Origin: Melioribacter sp.
GTDB taxonomy: Bacteria; Bacteroidota; Ignavibacteria; Ignavibacteriales; Melioribacteraceae
NCBI GenBank assembly: GCA_026417975.1
Contig: JAOACD010000007.1
Span: 167,572-231,571, forward strand
Reading direction: 5' to 3'
Length of the DNA: 64,000 bases
Positions 1,918 through 53,531 of this stretch are shown here, one piece after another. Under the pieces are notes generated by a model, which searched no databases, was not told where the DNA came from, and worked only from the letters and a program-made list of their open reading frames with translations. Each line of letters opens with the position of its first letter. The stretch's first letter is position 1. The position numbers were made by a program, and so were the translations under genes.

Positions 1918-4900
1918 TTACTGAATTGAAATATGAACATCAACACCAGCTTCGTTTGTTGTAGTTGGTGGAATTCTTGATGCTCCTTGCGGTTGAATAG
2001 TTGTTCTTCTATAAAATATTGACATTGTAACACGTGAACTCATAACATATCTAATTTTAGGCTCAATAACAATATTTGTTTTCCCATCTTGTGGGGTACC
2101 ACCTTCTTTGAAATTTTCCATGTCATAAATTACACTTGAAGTTTTCCCATTTGTATATGAAAAAGAAATTTCAAGATCGTTCTTCAAAGAAATTCCAAAC
2201 ATTGGTAGTTCAAATCCACTTTTTGAGTAACTAGCTGAAATATTTATATCACGAGATAAACTTTCTGTAATATTTCGTGTAGATGCACTTAAACTATAAG
2301 ATGTTCTTGATGTATATCTAATAGAGCTTTGAAATGCTCCACCAAATAATTTATCAAATTGAAATGTTATACCTATTAAAGGTGTAAAAGCATAATCAAT
2401 TTTTTGACTTTGAATTTCTTGCAAACCATCAGGATTAATTTTCCATCCTTCACTATAAGAAGATGTATATGTGTGAGTTATCGAAACTCGTTTTGCAAAA
2501 GAAAAGATTTCATATTTCTCAAGTCCTGACCAACTAAAATTCCAGTTTGGTCTAGGAATATATTTAGCAAATTTAGATAAAATTGGAATCTTTGATAGAA
2601 ATGAAGTCGTTTCAAATCCTTTAACAAATGCATCCGACAAGCTTTGGTTTGGATTAGGCGACTTTTTATCATAGAGTTCACTTACTTTTTTAATCCCATT
2701 ACCAAAAAACGAAAAAATTAAAGTTGAAGGGAATGTTAAAAACGATCTATCAATTGCTCCTGTTGAATTTATAACCGTAGAATAAATATTACCTATGGAA
2801 TCAGTTCTAAAAGTAATTGATTTATTTATTCCCCAGCCAATTTTCCAGTTGATATCTATTTGGGCTCCTTCCCAAAGAGGTCTCGAAGTTCTTAAATCAA
2901 TATCGTTTTTATGAGAATAATTATCTGACAGATTGCCATTCGGTGCGCGAGGGCCAATATCATTTGAAAATCCAAGCATAAACAATCTTGATGGGCCATT
3001 TAAAGGTTTTTGCTTCAAGCCCCAAAAATTATTAAAACCTGTACCTTCCCCTAATAGTCCACCTCCTGTATAACTACTCGACTGAGAAAAATTAACGGTA
3101 ATTTGATCATACTCAAAAAAGAGCCATTTAATTCCAAGCTTTAAATATGCAAGAGCAATTTGAAAATTACTTGGACCTATTATTGTATCTTTTTGAATTC
3201 CTTCATCCTTAGCTTGAAATTTTTGATTAGTAGAATCCTTAGATATATTTTCCTGGATTTTTAATTTTTCTTGAGCACTTTCTTGTGCTCCCCTAATTCT
3301 TTCATCTACATTTGTAGACCTTTGAGGTCTTCTTGCACCTCTTCTTCCTTCTGGACTAGTTTGAGGTTGCACTTGCTCCTGCTGAGTAGTAGATTCTTGG
3401 AATAATGGGGCAAATAAAGATTTAATTCGAAATATGAGACTACTTGATATCCTATTCGAATAACCTGCGCTTCTTCCCAAATCAGCCTGCTGAAAATTAT
3501 TTTGCCAACTATATGCAACACCATAAGAAAAATTCAAGTTTATATATCTATTTATATCCCACAGTGAAGGTAGTCTTGGATTTAATCTTACATCAAAATT
3601 TTGTCTATAATTAAAATCCTTCCCAAAAAGACTCTTATTAAATATATCGCGCCATATTTCACTTTCACTTCTTTCAATATCGTTTACAACCCATAAATGA
3701 ATTAACGAAGATTGCACATCAAAATTGTATGCGAAAGATAAATTAAGTAATCCCCCCTCGGTAACCATCCAATTAAATCCTGCACCTCTTGTTGCTGTAA
3801 AGTCTCTCTGAATATTTGGCTTACTTGCTAAAGTTCTGTTTAATGTAAAATTTCTTCTTCTCTGGGCAGTTATGGAAGCACTAAAAGTTTGAGGCAGAAA
3901 ATAAATTCTAAGATTATTATAATCCTTAAATACATTAATCAAGTCGCCTATTAGAGGAATATCTGCTGGTTTAAAATATAAATCCCGGCTTAAATTAACA
4001 GAATAGCTTGCGTTTGCATTCCATAACCAACCAGTATTACTCAAAACTGTTGGAGAACTACCAGAAGTCTTATTATAATTAAATCCAAAAGTTAAATTGT
4101 TAATGATATCTCTAATATACCATTTTTCCGAAGGCACTTTAAATCTGATGTTTTGAATTGACCATGTTTCGGATAAATTAACAGTTTGAGATTCTCTTTT
4201 AATACTTTGAACAGAATCTTCAATTACCTTAGGACTAAGATTTCTTTCTTCTAAGTACTTCCTAAGCTGATTCTGTGCTTCTTGTACTCTAACATCTGTT
4301 CCTGGTTTGAATAAAGGATTAATTGTTTGCTCTGTACGGGTATAATTAATTCTTAAATTACTTCCAGATAAATTAAACGGAAGTATTTTTAATAAATCAA
4401 AATCAACAGAGAACCCCCAATTTAATCTATCATCACGTGTACCAAATCTATCGTTTAATCTATGAAAGAAAGGATTAGATTTACTAATATTGAAATTAAC
4501 TTTCATTAAATCTGCAAAAGCCAATGAACCAGTTGCGTTATAAGCCCAACCTGGTGTGTCATCTGCTTCAAGTACCCGTAGTTCATTTATCCATACAGTA
4601 CCCGATATTCTTTGACCTGGAGTACCTTTATTGCTTGGGTTTAAAATTCCTATTATGAAAAATGAAATTCTTGTTAACGTTGGATTTCCTTTAATTCCAT
4701 AAGTATGCCCTTCTTTCCCCTCAACAGGGACTGTAAACAAGCTTTTAATTTGTGCTGAATCTCTTCTTTGTTTAATAGCAGTCAGTTCAGAAAATACTAT
4801 CTTTATTTCACTCCAGTTGTTATCCGTAATTTTTTCACTGGGTCTTAATGGTTGTCTATATTCATAGAAATTAGATGTATCGGAGCCAAATCTAATGTAA

Positions 4901-7900
4901 ACTTCTGCAGCATAATCGTTAAGATCTCTGTAATAAGATACATTTCCAGGAACAACATTTTCATCTGTATGAACAAACAATTTCATTTGCTTATAATTAA
5001 AAACATCTAATGGTTTATAAAGATAGCGTACTACTTCCCTTTTATCCCCGTCTTCCAATTCTTTTATTATTAATTCCAGAGATTGTTCGTTCTTATATAT
5101 CTGATAATCTGGTTGACTTCTATCCCGTTCGCGATGTACTCCTGGAGGAGACTTATACTCTGGATTATCTTCAACATTTACTACAGAAATTGTAAGTACT
5201 GTATCATCTGCTGTTACTTTATTAGGCTTTGTACTGTTTGGAGGGTCAAGAACTTTTTGCCATTGATTTCCTACAAGATTCATTTCAGCAAATCTTAAAT
5301 GAACAGGTTGACTAGAACCCGAAATCCAAAATCTAATAAATTCTACTACAGAAAAACTTGGATCACCAACTTTCTTAACAAAATCCTTCAGTGGGATTCT
5401 AAATAAATACCATCCTGAATTGCTACCTCCTCCTTGAACAAATGGGTTCACTTGTTTATTTGTATCAATTGGGACTTCATAATGAAAATAACTATTAACC
5501 TTATCCAGTGTAAAATTATGATTTAAATCTTCTGTATCAGGTAAGCGACCCAAATCTATCGAAACAGCATTTCCTTCTGTTCCATTAATGTTAGAATAAT
5601 CAGCATTTGCTGTTAAGCGAAATGAATAATTATCATGACTTGGGTCTGGATTATTTACTGGATCATATCCCGGTTCTTCAGAATCTTTAAGGCCATCCAT
5701 ACCCGTATCTTCACCTTGATCAACAAGGTCATTAAAATTTTTGTCCTCTGTATCAAGTTTACCGTTAGGTATAACATCTTCACTTATTTGACCTAAATCT
5801 ATATTTAATTTCAAATCTTTTGGCGCTTTTTCAATCTTAAGCCAAAATTCAATGAATTGAATGTTCTCTTCAACAAGGTTATTTGCTGTTGAAGAAAGAA
5901 CTTTCATTATACCAGCCCAATTTCTTTTTGTATCACTCAAATCTGGATACCAATTATAATAACCAGGCTTATCTGGTAAATAAACGAGGTCAAGTGCCGT
6001 AATTAGATTTTGATCAGGTGGTGCTTCTTTTCTATTACCATAAATGTCTCTTATAGTCACATCAGAAGGAGTTCTATTGAACCAATAGGCTTTAGCTTTA
6101 TAATTCATTTTTTGAATTTCACTCATTCCTTCTAGATAGGGAATTTCAACTGGAACACTTATATCCTTCCATGATCCATACTGCATACCAAGTGGTATAG
6201 TTCTTTTTGCACCTTCAAAATCGTCAATATATGCTATACTTTTACCTTCGTCACTTTCAATTGTGCTTTTTTTAGTGTTAGGGTCTGGATTTATATAAGC
6301 ATATTCAGCATTTATATTAAACGAAGAAGGAGCACTTGTAGAAATTACTTTATCAAGAGCTTTAGTTATAAAGGGCAAATTCACATTTGTTTTAAAATCT
6401 ATTCCAAACATCGAATTATTTAACGGTTCTTCGCCAATTCTTACTTTATCACTAAGAGTTTGTTGATTTAAATTAAAGAATGAAAACCCAAGTGTTGTTT
6501 CTCTATTAAATTCATATATTCCTCTTAAACCTACCAAAGTTTTAGATGCAAGCTGGAAAAGATCATTTTGTTCATATGTAATTCTTAAATCTGCACCAGG
6601 TACAAGAGCTTCTGGTTTTCGAATAATCACCTGACCAATATTATAATCTACAGTATAATCAATGCCTTCCTTTAATGGGTTTCCGTTTAGCAAAACTCTT
6701 ACAGAATTTTCAACAACATTAAAACCAATGTTATAAGATGATGTTACTGCAGCAGAATATTCACCTGTAATTATAAATTTATCCTTAGCTCTATCTTGTT
6801 TTGCAAATGTGACCGTTGTATCGTAAACCGACTGATATTTTAAATTATCAGGTAGATTTTTAGGAAAATCTCTTCCAAAAGGTTCAAGCACAGGAAAAAC
6901 TATTTCTCCAGTTTGAGGGAAAATAGTTCTTCCAGGGAAAAAATCGAATGCTCCATCAGGACCACTAGTTCCACTTTTATCTGTTTTATCCAAACCAAAA
7001 GCTTGTATTAATTTAATTCCATTATATTCACTTTGTGGCTCACCGCCTTCAAATTGAAACTTAATATCTAGAGTAAAACCATCCTCTTTAATATCCCTTC
7101 CACCAATAGGATAAATATTTCTTAATTGTAATTTCCAAGCTTTTTTGAATTGCGGTTGAAGATTAGGGGGTTTAACTAATTTCAAAACTATCCTTGCACT
7201 AGAATCTGCTGCTACATCTTGAAGGAATTCGCCATAATAAATATCGTCATCTGGAGAGGAAGTAGGACCTTCTATTCTATAAGCAACCGCAATAGCATCT
7301 TGGTCTTGAATTTGTGTTTTAAAACTTATAAAGCCAGTTTCCTTATGAATTTCATAATCAACTCCTTGTTGCAATAAAATCCAACGTCGATCAATTTCTT
7401 TTATTCCAGGTACAGTCTGATCTTCTGCCCCTCTTAAATTATCATATCTCTGATTTTTAGTTCTTCTTGGTAAATCGATATATGCATTCCCTTTTCTCTC
7501 ATTAGGGTTTACAAGACCTGTAATTGTTTTCCATACTTCTATATCTTTGACACGAATTGAGTCAATTACAATAGGCACAGGGTTACCATAATAATTATTA
7601 AACACGTTCAACTTTGGATCTGTATAAACATCGTTAATAAAAAAGTGGTTAGGCGAATAATCATAAGCACGAATTTGGAATTGTTGAGACTTTGCACCAC
7701 CACTAACCGACACTTCTTGAATTTCTCCTTTTTTCTGAGAAGCAAGTGCAGTCAATTTAAATGGTCCCATTTGCATCTGAGCTTTAACACCAAATAAAGC
7801 TTCGCTTCCGCCAACAAGTGGAGAAGTTTGAAGAGAAACATTTCCAGCTTCTATGCTTTGAATAATTTCGTCTTCATATCCAGTATATTTTATTTTTAAT

Positions 7901-8871
7901 TGATTTTCGTATTGAAATGTTCGTTCAGTATTCCAATCTGCAGATAAATTTAATTTATCTCCTATTGTTCCATTAAGATTAATTTGCACTTGTTGTCTAA
8001 AATCAGGTTCATTTCTTGTATTCCCCAAAGCAGAAGTGGTAATACCTTCTGTTGTTTCATTACGCCAAGCACCATGAATATCAACAGCTCCAGCAATTCT
8101 AATATTAATTTTGGGAGGACCAAAAATGCTAAATAGAGATGTACTAGGTAGCGGTATTTCAATGTTGGTTATATCAGTTATTAATTGAGTTAAATCTTTT
8201 TTAGTTTCTTTTAATTCATACTTATAAGCCAATTGTTCCCAGTTATCTCTTGTTATTGCTTCCAGTCTTAATTTTATATACTCTTCAAGCGGCATTTCTA
8301 GAAAAATCTTTGCTTCTTGTCCAGCTATTTTTTCCTTTATTATAACCTTTGTGCCCGTTGAATCAAGTTCTATTGTTCTTATTAACGTTGAGGAAGATGG
8401 GTAAACAAAGAATGCAGATTGTTTTTTAGGTCTAAATGGAACAACATAATAATCATTTCTATATGCACGAAAATATTTAATTCTTGCTGTAGAATCGGCA
8501 GCAAGCGAATCTATTCTTTTAATTGAATCTTGTTTTTCTTTAAGCTTTATTGAATCTGAATGTGATAACTTTACAAGAGATGTATCCTTATTAAAAGCTC
8601 TTTTAGTACTTTCTGTAGAATCAGGAATTGTTAGCTGTAAATTCAAATAAGAAAGATATTCTTTGAAAAGTTTTTCTTCTGGTTTAGGTGGGAAATTATA
8701 TTCTAAGGTTTTTGAGCTTTCATAATTAAAACAAGCATCAAATAAAATTAAATTTTGATTAATTCGATGTGAATTTGTAAAACCAAAAAAGGCTACAATA
8801 GTGACGAAAGCAAATGGGACAAAAAATACTTTAATTCCGGCTCTAAAGATATTTTTTACTTCAGGAGAAAT
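1918..8871 (-). CDS. sprA: SprA/Sov, outer-membrane translocon of the type IX secretion system (start re-called at an ATT codon, 8869-8871)
   Basis: Giant SprA-like protein (ORF track 1918..8646 from a TTG). The reading frame stays open upstream to a TAA at 8875-8877 and encodes ISPEVKNIFRAGIKVFFVPFAFVTIVAFFGFTNS..., which looks like a signal peptide. AGAAGG lies about 6 nt before the ATT. The gene identity is secure; the start is inference. Confidence 0.85.
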   Translation of the reverse strand: MSPEVKNIFRAGIKVFFVPFAFVTIVAFFGFTNSHRINQNLILFDACFNYESSKTLEYNFPPKPEEKLFKEYLSYLNLQLTIPDSTESTKRAFNKDTSLVKLSHSDSIKLKEKQDSIKRIDSLAADSTARIKYFRAYRNDYYVVPFRPKKQSAFFVYPSSSTLIRTIELDSTGTKVIIKEKIAGQEAKIFLEMPLEEYIKLRLEAITRDNWEQLAYKYELKETKKDLTQLITDITNIEIPLPSTSLFSIFGPPKINIRIAGAVDIHGAWRNETTEGITTSALGNTRNEPDFRQQVQINLNGTIGDKLNLSADWNTERTFQYENQLKIKYTGYEDEIIQSIEAGNVSLQTSPLVGGSEALFGVKAQMQMGPFKLTALASQKKGEIQEVSVSGGAKSQQFQIRAYDYSPNHFFINDVYTDPKLNVFNNYYGNPVPIVIDSIRVKDIEVWKTITGLVNPNERKGNAYIDLPRRTKNQRYDNLRGAEDQTVPGIKEIDRRWILLQQGVDYEIHKETGFISFKTQIQDQDAIAVAYRIEGPTSSPDDDIYYGEFLQDVAADSSARIVLKLVKPPNLQPQFKKAWKLQLRNIYPIGGRDIKEDGFTLDIKFQFEGGEPQSEYNGIKLIQAFGLDKTDKSGTSGPDGAFDFFPGRTIFPQTGEIVFPVLEPFGRDFPKNLPDNLKYQSVYDTTVTFAKQDRAKDKFIITGEYSAAVTSSYNIGFNVVENSVRVLLNGNPLKEGIDYTVDYNIGQVIIRKPEALVPGADLRITYEQNDLFQLASKTLVGLRGIYEFNRETTLGFSFFNLNQQTLSDKVRIGEEPLNNSMFGIDFKTNVNLPFITKALDKVISTSAPSSFNINAEYAYINPDPNTKKSTIESDEGKSIAYIDDFEGAKRTIPLGMQYGSWKDISVPVEIPYLEGMSEIQKMNYKAKAYWFNRTPSDVTIRDIYGNRKEAPPDQNLITALDLVYLPDKPGYYNWYPDLSDTKRNWAGIMKVLSSTANNLVEENIQFIEFWLKIEKAPKDLKLNIDLGQISEDVIPNGKLDTEDKNFNDLVDQGEDTGMDGLKDSEEPGYDPVNNPDPSHDNYSFRLTANADYSNINGTEGNAVSIDLGRLPDTEDLNHNFTLDKVNSYFHYEVPIDTNKQVNPFVQGGGSNSGWYLFRIPLKDFVKKVGDPSFSVVEFIRFWISGSSQPVHLRFAEMNLVGNQWQKVLDPPNSTKPNKVTADDTVLTISVVNVEDNPEYKSPPGVHRERDRSQPDYQIYKNEQSLELIIKELEDGDKREVVRYLYKPLDVFNYKQMKLFVHTDENVVPGNVSYYRDLNDYAAEVYIRFGSDTSNFYEYRQPLRPSEKITDNNWSEIKIVFSELTAIKQRRDSAQIKSLFTVPVEGKEGHTYGIKGNPTLTRISFFIIGILNPSNKGTPGQRISGTVWINELRVLEADDTPGWAYNATGSLAFADLMKVNFNISKSNPFFHRLNDRFGTRDDRLNWGFSVDFDLLKILPFNLSGSNLRINYTRTEQTINPLFKPGTDVRVQEAQNQLRKYLEERNLSPKVIEDSVQSIKRESQTVNLSETWSIQNIRFKVPSEKWYIRDIINNLTFGFNYNKTSGSSPTVLSNTGWLWNANASYSVNLSRDLYFKPADIPLIGDLINVFKDYNNLRIYFLPQTFSASITAQRRRNFTLNRTLASKPNIQRDFTATRGAGFNWMVTEGGLLNLSFAYNFDVQSSLIHLWVVNDIERSESEIWRDIFNKSLFGKDFNYRQNFDVRLNPRLPSLWDINRYINLNFSYGVAYSWQNNFQQADLGRSAGYSNRISSSLIFRIKSLFAPLFQESTTQQEQVQPQTSPEGRRGARRPQRSTNVDERIRGAQESAQEKLKIQENISKDSTNQKFQAKDEGIQKDTIIGPSNFQIALAYLKLGIKWLFFEYDQITVNFSQSSSYTGGGLLGEGTGFNNFWGLKQKPLNGPSRLFMLGFSNDIGPRAPNGNLSDNYSHKNDIDLRTSRPLWEGAQIDINWKIGWGINKSITFRTDSIGNIYSTVINSTGAIDRSFLTFPSTLIFSFFGNGIKKVSELYDKKSPNPNQSLSDAFVKGFETTSFLSKIPILSKFAKYIPRPNWNFSWSGLEKYEIFSFAKRVSITHTYTSSYSEGWKINPDGLQEIQSQKIDYAFTPLIGITFQFDKLFGGAFQSSIRYTSRTSYSLSASTRNITESLSRDINISASYSKSGFELPMFGISLKNDLEISFSYTNGKTSSVIYDMENFKEGGTPQDGKTNIVIEPKIRYVMSSRVTMSIFYRRTTIQPQGASRIPPTTTNEAGVDVHISIQ

Positions 8872-9056
8872 AGCTTACCTTCTGATTTTTTACAATAGTA
8901 GAAAGAATGTAATGAGTTTCCTCCTATTAATTTGGGCTTCAAATTTAATAAAAAAAATTTTTATTGCAATTAAGTCTATGGTTACAAATTAAGATTTGAT
9001 TAGGTTATCAAAAGAATTATTAAGGCATTTTTAACAATCCAAAACTAATAATTTTT

Positions 9057-13278: not shown

Positions 13279-14889
13279 TCAACCAAAAATTAATTTAACA
13301 ATAAAAAAAGCACCTAATATTCCCGCAATATCAGCAAGAACACCTGCAGCTACAGCATGTCTTGTCCTCTTAATATTTACAGAACCAAAATACAAAGCAA
13401 GAACATAAAAAGTTGTTTCGGTACTACCCATAATAGTAGATACAAGAATTCCAATAAAAGAATCAGGTCCGTGCACTGAAATAATTTCAGACATAATTCC
13501 AAGCGACGCACTTCCTGAAAGAGGCCTCATTAATGCCATTGGTAAGGCTTCTGCAGGGAATCCTATTAAATTTGTAAGTGGGGACAATAAGTAAATTAAA
13601 AAATCCATAGCTCCGCTTACTCTAAAAATTCCAATTGCAATTAACATTGCAACAAGATATGGTATGATTCTTATTGCTACATTAAACCCTTCCTTTGCCC
13701 CTTCTATAAATACTTCATAAATTTTTATTTTTCTAGCAAAACCATAACAAACAAAAAGAAATATTATTAATGGAATAGCTAAAACTGAAATCAATTGTAT
13801 TGTTTCTCTAATAAGTTCAATATCAAAATTTATTAGTATATTTTTCAATTCTGTTAATGAAAGAAAAATTAGTAATGCTATAATAAAGACAAGGGTGATA
13901 ATTTTTTTATAATTCTTTCTTATCGATGCTATAACTTGTTCTAGATTAAACGGAAATTTCTCCAAAGTTTTTGCCGCAATTATTCCTGTTAAAGTTGCAC
14001 ACAAAGCACCAAAAAAAGAAGTCCCAATAATTATAGCAGGATTACTACTTCCTGCGGCAGCTCTTATAGCAATTGCTGTAGCAGGTATCAATGTTAACCC
14101 CGCAGTATTTATAGCAAGAAAAGTACACATAGCATTAGTTGCAACTCCCTTATTACTATTGAGTTTATCAAGTTCTTCCATAGCTTTAAGCCCAAAAGGG
14201 GTGGCTGCATTTCCTAAGCCTAACATATTTGCTGATATATTCATAATTATAGATGCAATTGCTGGATGGTCTTGTGGAACATCGGGGAATAAAAATTTTG
14301 TAATTGGCCTAACTAATTTCGAAATTAATGTTATTAAACCTGCTTCTTCTGCAATTTTCATTATCCCTAACCATAAAGCCATAATACCAATTAAGCCAAT
14401 AGCAATTTTTACAGCATTTTCTGCATAATCAATAATTGCATTTGTCACTTCTTTCATCTTCAAGAACGAAACTTTTTCCAAATACAAGTTAGCAGAATAA
14501 TTAAGCGAATCAAGTTTTTTACTTAAAATCAATCTTCCTGTTATATCATAATCTTTCCCAGAAGACTTAGCAATTTCTTTCCATATCTTAGGAGCTGTTT
14601 CATCTATTTTTAGGTAAACAGAAAAAGAATTTTTATTATCTCTAGCCAAAGTTATTTTTTGTTTAATGTCATGTTTAATAGTAGTTTTGTAGAAGCTATT
14701 AAACTCTTTTAAAGTTATTAAAACTTCTGCACTGATAGTTTTGGACTTATTAATATCATCTTCGAAATTTATTATAACATTTAATGGATGATTATTTTTA
14801 TACTTATCGTTAGAAAGGTCTTTAATGTCGAGAGTAAAAGCTGTTATAATTCCTAATGCCAATAATGTAAGCCAGATATAATTGAGCAT
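13279..14889 (-). CDS. Nucleoside-recognition (Gate) domain membrane protein, SpmA/SpmB-like fusion
   Basis: Two gate-like halves (ISANMLGLGNAATPFGLKAMEELD; MRPLSGSASLGIMSEIISVHGPDSFIGILVSTIMGSTETTFYVLALYFG) in one 536-aa polytopic protein. Confidence 0.85.
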   Translation of the reverse strand: MLNYIWLTLLALGIITAFTLDIKDLSNDKYKNNHPLNVIINFEDDINKSKTISAEVLITLKEFNSFYKTTIKHDIKQKITLARDNKNSFSVYLKIDETAPKIWKEIAKSSGKDYDITGRLILSKKLDSLNYSANLYLEKVSFLKMKEVTNAIIDYAENAVKIAIGLIGIMALWLGIMKIAEEAGLITLISKLVRPITKFLFPDVPQDHPAIASIIMNISANMLGLGNAATPFGLKAMEELDKLNSNKGVATNAMCTFLAINTAGLTLIPATAIAIRAAAGSSNPAIIIGTSFFGALCATLTGIIAAKTLEKFPFNLEQVIASIRKNYKKIITLVFIIALLIFLSLTELKNILINFDIELIRETIQLISVLAIPLIIFLFVCYGFARKIKIYEVFIEGAKEGFNVAIRIIPYLVAMLIAIGIFRVSGAMDFLIYLLSPLTNLIGFPAEALPMALMRPLSGSASLGIMSEIISVHGPDSFIGILVSTIMGSTETTFYVLALYFGSVNIKRTRHAVAAGVLADIAGILGAFFIVKLIFG

Positions 14890-53003: not shown

Positions 53004-53531
53004 TTATTTTTTCTTTTTTCCTTTTTGCGGTGCTAATATGGCAAGCATCGCTTTGCCTTCAAACTTTGGTTCTTGTTCAACTTTAGCTATATCAGATAAT
53101 CTTTCTATAAATTTTCTTAAAAGTTCTTCCCCAATTTCTGTGTAAGCCAATTCTCTCCCCTTAAATATCACAGAAACTTTAACTTTATTACCTTCCTCAA
53201 TAAAATTAATTGCATGGCGTACTTTAAACTCAAAATCATGTGTATCTGTATTAGGATGCAATCTTATTTCTTTGAGTACACTAACATGTTGTTTCTTTTT
53301 CTGGAGCTTTTCTTTTTTTTGTAATTCATAGACGAATTTACCATAGTCAATTATTTTGCACACTGGTGGATTTGCTTGAGGTGCTATTTCAACCAAATCC
53401 AACCCACTTTCTTCTGCTCTTTTTAATGCTTCTTGTATTGTTACTATTCCTACTTGTTCTCCATCAGCACCAATTAGTCTTACCTGTGGAGACTTAATTT
53501 CCTGATTTACTCGATGTTTTATTTGTGTAAT
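53004..53531 (-). CDS. infC: Translation initiation factor IF-3, ATT start codon
   Basis: Extended ORF: (ATT)TQIKHRVNQEIKSPQVRLIGADGEQVGIVTIQEALKRAEESGLDLVEIAPQANPPVCKIIDYGKF. In-frame TAG at 53535-53537; AGAGG lies 6 nt upstream of the ATT. ORF track shows only a truncated version from an internal TTG. Confidence 0.95.
   Translation of the reverse strand: MTQIKHRVNQEIKSPQVRLIGADGEQVGIVTIQEALKRAEESGLDLVEIAPQANPPVCKIIDYGKFVYELQKKEKLQKKKQHVSVLKEIRLHPNTDTHDFEFKVRHAINFIEEGNKVKVSVIFKGRELAYTEIGEELLRKFIERLSDIAKVEQEPKFEGKAMLAILAPQKGKKKK

Follow-up and report, generated by a model that had tools for sequence, protein, structure and literature searches.

The 64,000-nucleotide stretch of Melioribacter sp. 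DNA analysed here (the window) carries sprA on its minus strand, in a frame that runs open from position 8874 to a stop ending at 1918. The product matches TIGR04189 over residues 162-2316, nearly its whole length, scoring 1072.6 bits where the cut-off is 200, and is the translocon Sov/SprA of the type IX secretion system (T9SS). The initial annotation had described this frame as open upstream of a TTG at 8646, back to an in-frame TAA, and as lacking any ATG, GTG or TTG (the canonical starts) on the way. Direct reading confirms both points: no canonical codon occurs between the TAA and TTG 8646, and the start-less stretch counts 76 codons. An ATT at 8871-8869, preceded at the 6-nt spacing given earlier by the Shine-Dalgarno (SD) sequence AGAAGG, opens into SPEVKNIFRAGIKVFFVPFAFVTIVAFFGFTNS, a basic and then hydrophobic N-terminus of the kind that an exported protein needs, in keeping with the signal peptide first proposed. 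Further upstream lie a conserved leader element, termed E1, and a promoter-like match (Table 1).

Table 1. Features of the sprA start region and of the infC control in the window.
Feature	Position	Strand	Basis
sprA coding sequence read from ATT (T9SS outer-membrane translocon Sov/SprA)	1918..8871	-	TIGR04189 1072.6 bits; Pfam SprA_N
ATT, proposed sprA start codon	8869..8871	-	SD-spaced in-frame ATT/ATC kept across the order
TAA, in-frame stop immediately 5' of the sprA start region	8875..8877	-	direct reading
AGAAGG, sprA SD, 6 nt 5' of ATT	8878..8883	-	direct reading; aligns with GAAGG in both same-genus genomes
E1, conserved sprA leader element, AGGAGG ... ATTACATTCTTTCTAC	8898..8925	-	present in about 50 order-level leaders
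Promoter-like match TTG-N19-TAAATTTG	8940..8969	-	direct reading; conserved block in leader alignment
ATT start codon of infC (initiation factor 3, IF3), positive control	53529..53531	-	TIGR00168; start comparison in 30 genomes

The window has 41 open frames of 150 codons or more, and among them the start-less stretch of sprA is the second longest. The longest (82 codons) belongs to a plus-strand frame, 13913-14428, lying inside a minus-strand open reading frame (ORF), and that of infC ranks fourth with 44 codons. The neighbours of sprA look ordinary, and 26 of 39 ORFs are given ATG starts. SD-like pairing is found ahead of 23 chosen starts compared with 6 at a mock position, a difference that is indicative only, as the starts were partly picked by their SD. 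This genome thus seems to make use of SD sequences, in contrast to Bacteroidia, in which the ribosomes fail to recognise them (PMC9976891).

The comparison of upstream DNA from relatives, which the initial annotation had suggested, finds the SD and an in-frame ATT or ATC kept through the order. It draws on two sets of relatives, one of 51 loci and one of 74 named loci, which share species and cannot be counted as independent; many of the genomes are metagenome-assembled, and single-contig assemblies are also included. The gene is present in 57 of 58 related genomes, and the named relatives place the Melioribacter sp. group in Ignavibacteriales, adjoining Melioribacter. In-frame ATH (ATT, ATC or ATA) stands at SD distance in 36 of the 51 loci, compared with 6 and 0 for the two remaining frames, and in 55 of the 74, compared with 12 and 5; the recurrence is more than chance. 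When the best SD serves as the anchor and the codon is not chosen, in-frame ATH makes up 21/25 codons at a spacing of 6, 16/20 at 7 and 10/19 at 8 (47/64 when pooled). At the remaining spacings between 0 and 15 its share is 0-21% (for example 1/25 at 9 and 1/20 at 4), except for 32% (6/19) at a spacing of 5. The best SD-spaced site per locus, over 66 loci, is ATT in 42, ATC in 22 and ATA in only 2, yet ATA supplies 25% of the isoleucine codons downstream in sprA. Closely related pairs exchange ATT and ATC at this site. Neither the 51 nor the 74 loci showed an in-frame ATG at SD spacing, and 30 of the 74 hold no canonical start anywhere in the region. Comparison thus shows the putative AUU/AUC start of sprA to be conserved through the order Ignavibacteriales. 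One sprA (L026, L164) has CTG after GAGG where relatives carry AUU/AUC.

These comparisons also bear on two simpler accounts of the missing start. The Melioribacter sp. genome is a draft, 79% complete, and an ATG could have been lost by a sequencing or assembly error. A base error or indel restoring it was sought among the relatives and not found: both same-genus genomes lack a canonical start before the signal peptide, as do independent assemblies, single-contig ones included, and most order-level relatives show the same lack. In the same-genus genomes the alignment retains the SD (GAAGG) and the string CTAT(T/C)TCT. The error reading is refuted by this, and we assign it a negligible probability. 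Alternatively, translation could begin at TTG 8646, the first canonical codon of the frame, or at another downstream canonical codon, with the upstream open frame left untranslated. Such a start would strip the signal peptide from SprA, whose hydrophobic N-terminus is maintained across the order, and the first canonical codon is itself not conserved, as it is the 107th in L004 and the 54th in L005; we therefore consider this reading very improbable.

The infC gene, which encodes the fidelity factor IF3 and has the classical IF3-sensitive start, provides a positive control in the same genomes. Of 30 Ignavibacteriales genomes (L089-L118), 29 begin infC with ATC or ATT behind an SD, the infC of the window included; L103 is the exception. 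Because infC uses the same SD-led AUC/AUU in the genomes that carry this sprA, sprA joins infC, by sequence comparison, as a second gene with this class of start codon, kept through Ignavibacteriales. Several observations weigh against an AUU/AUC start: SD plus in-frame ATH is missing in 19 of the 74 named loci, some of which have TTG instead; 13 of 66 loci contain a canonical codon in the interval from the stop or E1 to the ATH; and sprA has a weaker SD than infC. Taken with these, the SD-led ATT start first put forward for sprA is strongly supported by its order-wide conservation and by the shared start class of infC, and translation from AUU 8871-8869 is, on this comparative footing, highly probable.

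The leader upstream of this start contains E1, which the initial annotation does not mention, with the rough consensus GGAGG-N3-6-TATMGA-N5-9-TTYTAC. E1 follows the match at 8969-8940, which is promoter-like by the Bacteroidota promoter consensus (TTTG/TAnnTTTG), and it therefore probably lies near the 5' end of the sprA mRNA. The stretch between E1 and the ATH is evidently not translated in frame, since an in-frame stop interrupts it in 48 of 66 loci and five of seven indels between close pairs are not multiples of three. In many genomes the GGAGG of E1 has an AUH 3-6 nt behind it, a strong SD followed by AUA, AUC or AUU, which would allow initiation within E1 if the sprA frame were then reached by frameshift or bypass. 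The frame of E1 relative to sprA is, however, random (14/15/16), the peptides that it would encode are not conserved, several of them ending after two codons, and E1 is found as well at the head of operons that start with ATG. The random frames and unconserved peptides lead us to reject a start within E1, to which we attach scarcely any probability.

Beyond the order, elsewhere in the phylum, the E1 core CTATMG ... GCTAC occurs in 22 of 72 sprA upstream regions, compared with 3.7 expected from mononucleotide shuffles. Within the order, E1 is also found before a conserved lipoprotein/beta-propeller operon: at E < 0.1 it is present in 12 of 30 upstream regions and in 0 of the reversed control. 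At these operon loci (L289, L299, L304, L313-L342) it often stands behind a TAnnTTTG promoter element. A loose E1 pattern searched in 58 genomes was not above the reversed control. E1 shows no consensus base pairs, the sprA leader folds no better than shuffled sequences (z about 0), and an Rfam scan of the leader returned no family near its gathering score; together these speak against a hairpin or a known structured leader RNA such as a riboswitch. The idea that E1 is an upstream ORF or acts as a decoy for ribosomes is weakened by copies of E1 with only GGRA that also head lipoprotein operons with ATG starts. E1 may also be a promoter of the extracytoplasmic function (ECF) type, but a housekeeping promoter match is present just upstream of E1 in both gene groups. 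E1 is probably a regulatory element in its own right, not the start of sprA, and may define a small regulon.

Outside Ignavibacteriales the start of sprA differs. In the nearest family (f13) it is ATG in L207, L210 and L212, TTG then ATG in L208, and TTG in L205 and L206; farther out, TTG is frequent about as far from the leader element. Within this sampling, a start at AUU/AUC thus appears to be characteristic of Ignavibacteriales. The same six f13 loci share a conserved string of another kind, ATAAGATACTYT, immediately ahead of or at the ATG or TTG start. In one phylum-level sprA (L273), ATG, GTG and TTG are all absent ahead of the signal peptide, and a non-canonical start may accordingly exist elsewhere in the phylum.

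We propose that the SD AGAAGG would position the ribosome on AUU 8871-8869, which the initiator tRNA presumably reads as formylmethionine. IF3 discriminates against a group of codons that includes AUU and AUC, the very codons with which infC opens in the same genomes; sprA translation is therefore probably low and IF3-sensitive, by analogy with infC and sigR and as the initial annotation had suggested. As a whole, an AUU start placed by its SD, with low and IF3-sensitive synthesis of SprA, is probably the best explanation of the locus. SprA, a very large protein, is presumably required in small numbers. The codon might accordingly be the start and yet merely a weak one that fixes a constantly low rate, with changes in IF3 carrying no regulatory meaning. 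The frequent TTG of sprA outside the order, another weak start, fits such a reading, but GTG or TTG would then serve equally, and the clade keeps AUU/AUC and swaps between the two. We give this account a little less than an even chance, and hold an IF3 sensitivity of sprA that has regulatory meaning, argued from analogy, to be possible to a similar degree.

Known genes with exceptional starts offer partial parallels. Like sprA, infC (AUU in E. coli, AUC in Streptomyces) combines an AUU/AUC codon with an SD ahead of it and with conservation over long evolutionary spans, and it occurs with this start in the genomes studied here; unlike sprA, it encodes IF3 itself and closes a feedback loop, whereas a secretion channel has no direct feedback on IF3. 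E. coli pcnB is reportedly another gene than infC with an AUU start, although its product, in contrast to SprA, is a small cytoplasmic enzyme. Non-canonical starts are repressed by IF3 in E. coli and Streptomyces, with infC and sigR as examples (PMC5472188). Streptomyces sigR resembles sprA in not being an initiation-factor gene, and its non-canonical start puts it under IF3 repression; it differs in its GTC codon, in its experimental demonstration and in encoding a sigma factor (PMC5472188). In Bacteroidota, the phylum of sprA here, rpsU (bS21) is likewise a single gene whose initiation signal is exceptional and serves in its control, which is exerted through extended SD strength and bS21 and not through the start codon (PMC9976891). 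By the analogy with infC and sigR, repression of sprA by IF3 is likely. No report of a non-canonical sprA start was found in the literature, among open-access papers. A wider proposal, which we regard as speculative and rather unlikely, is that IF3 acts as a secretion regulator in Ignavibacteriales through the AUU/AUC start, and that E1 joins sprA and the lipoprotein/beta-propeller operon in one regulon controlled in early transcription or in the mRNA leader.

Conserved instances of the rare AUU/AUC starts are hardly known outside infC, and the case of sprA would extend through an order and concern a secretion gene of very large size. Gene callers restricted to ATG, GTG and TTG would misplace the N-terminus of SprA in Ignavibacteriales, and with it lose the signal peptide. 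For the study of IF3 discrimination, sprA would represent a naturally tested second case, with the prediction that secretion capacity tracks the level of the initiation factor.
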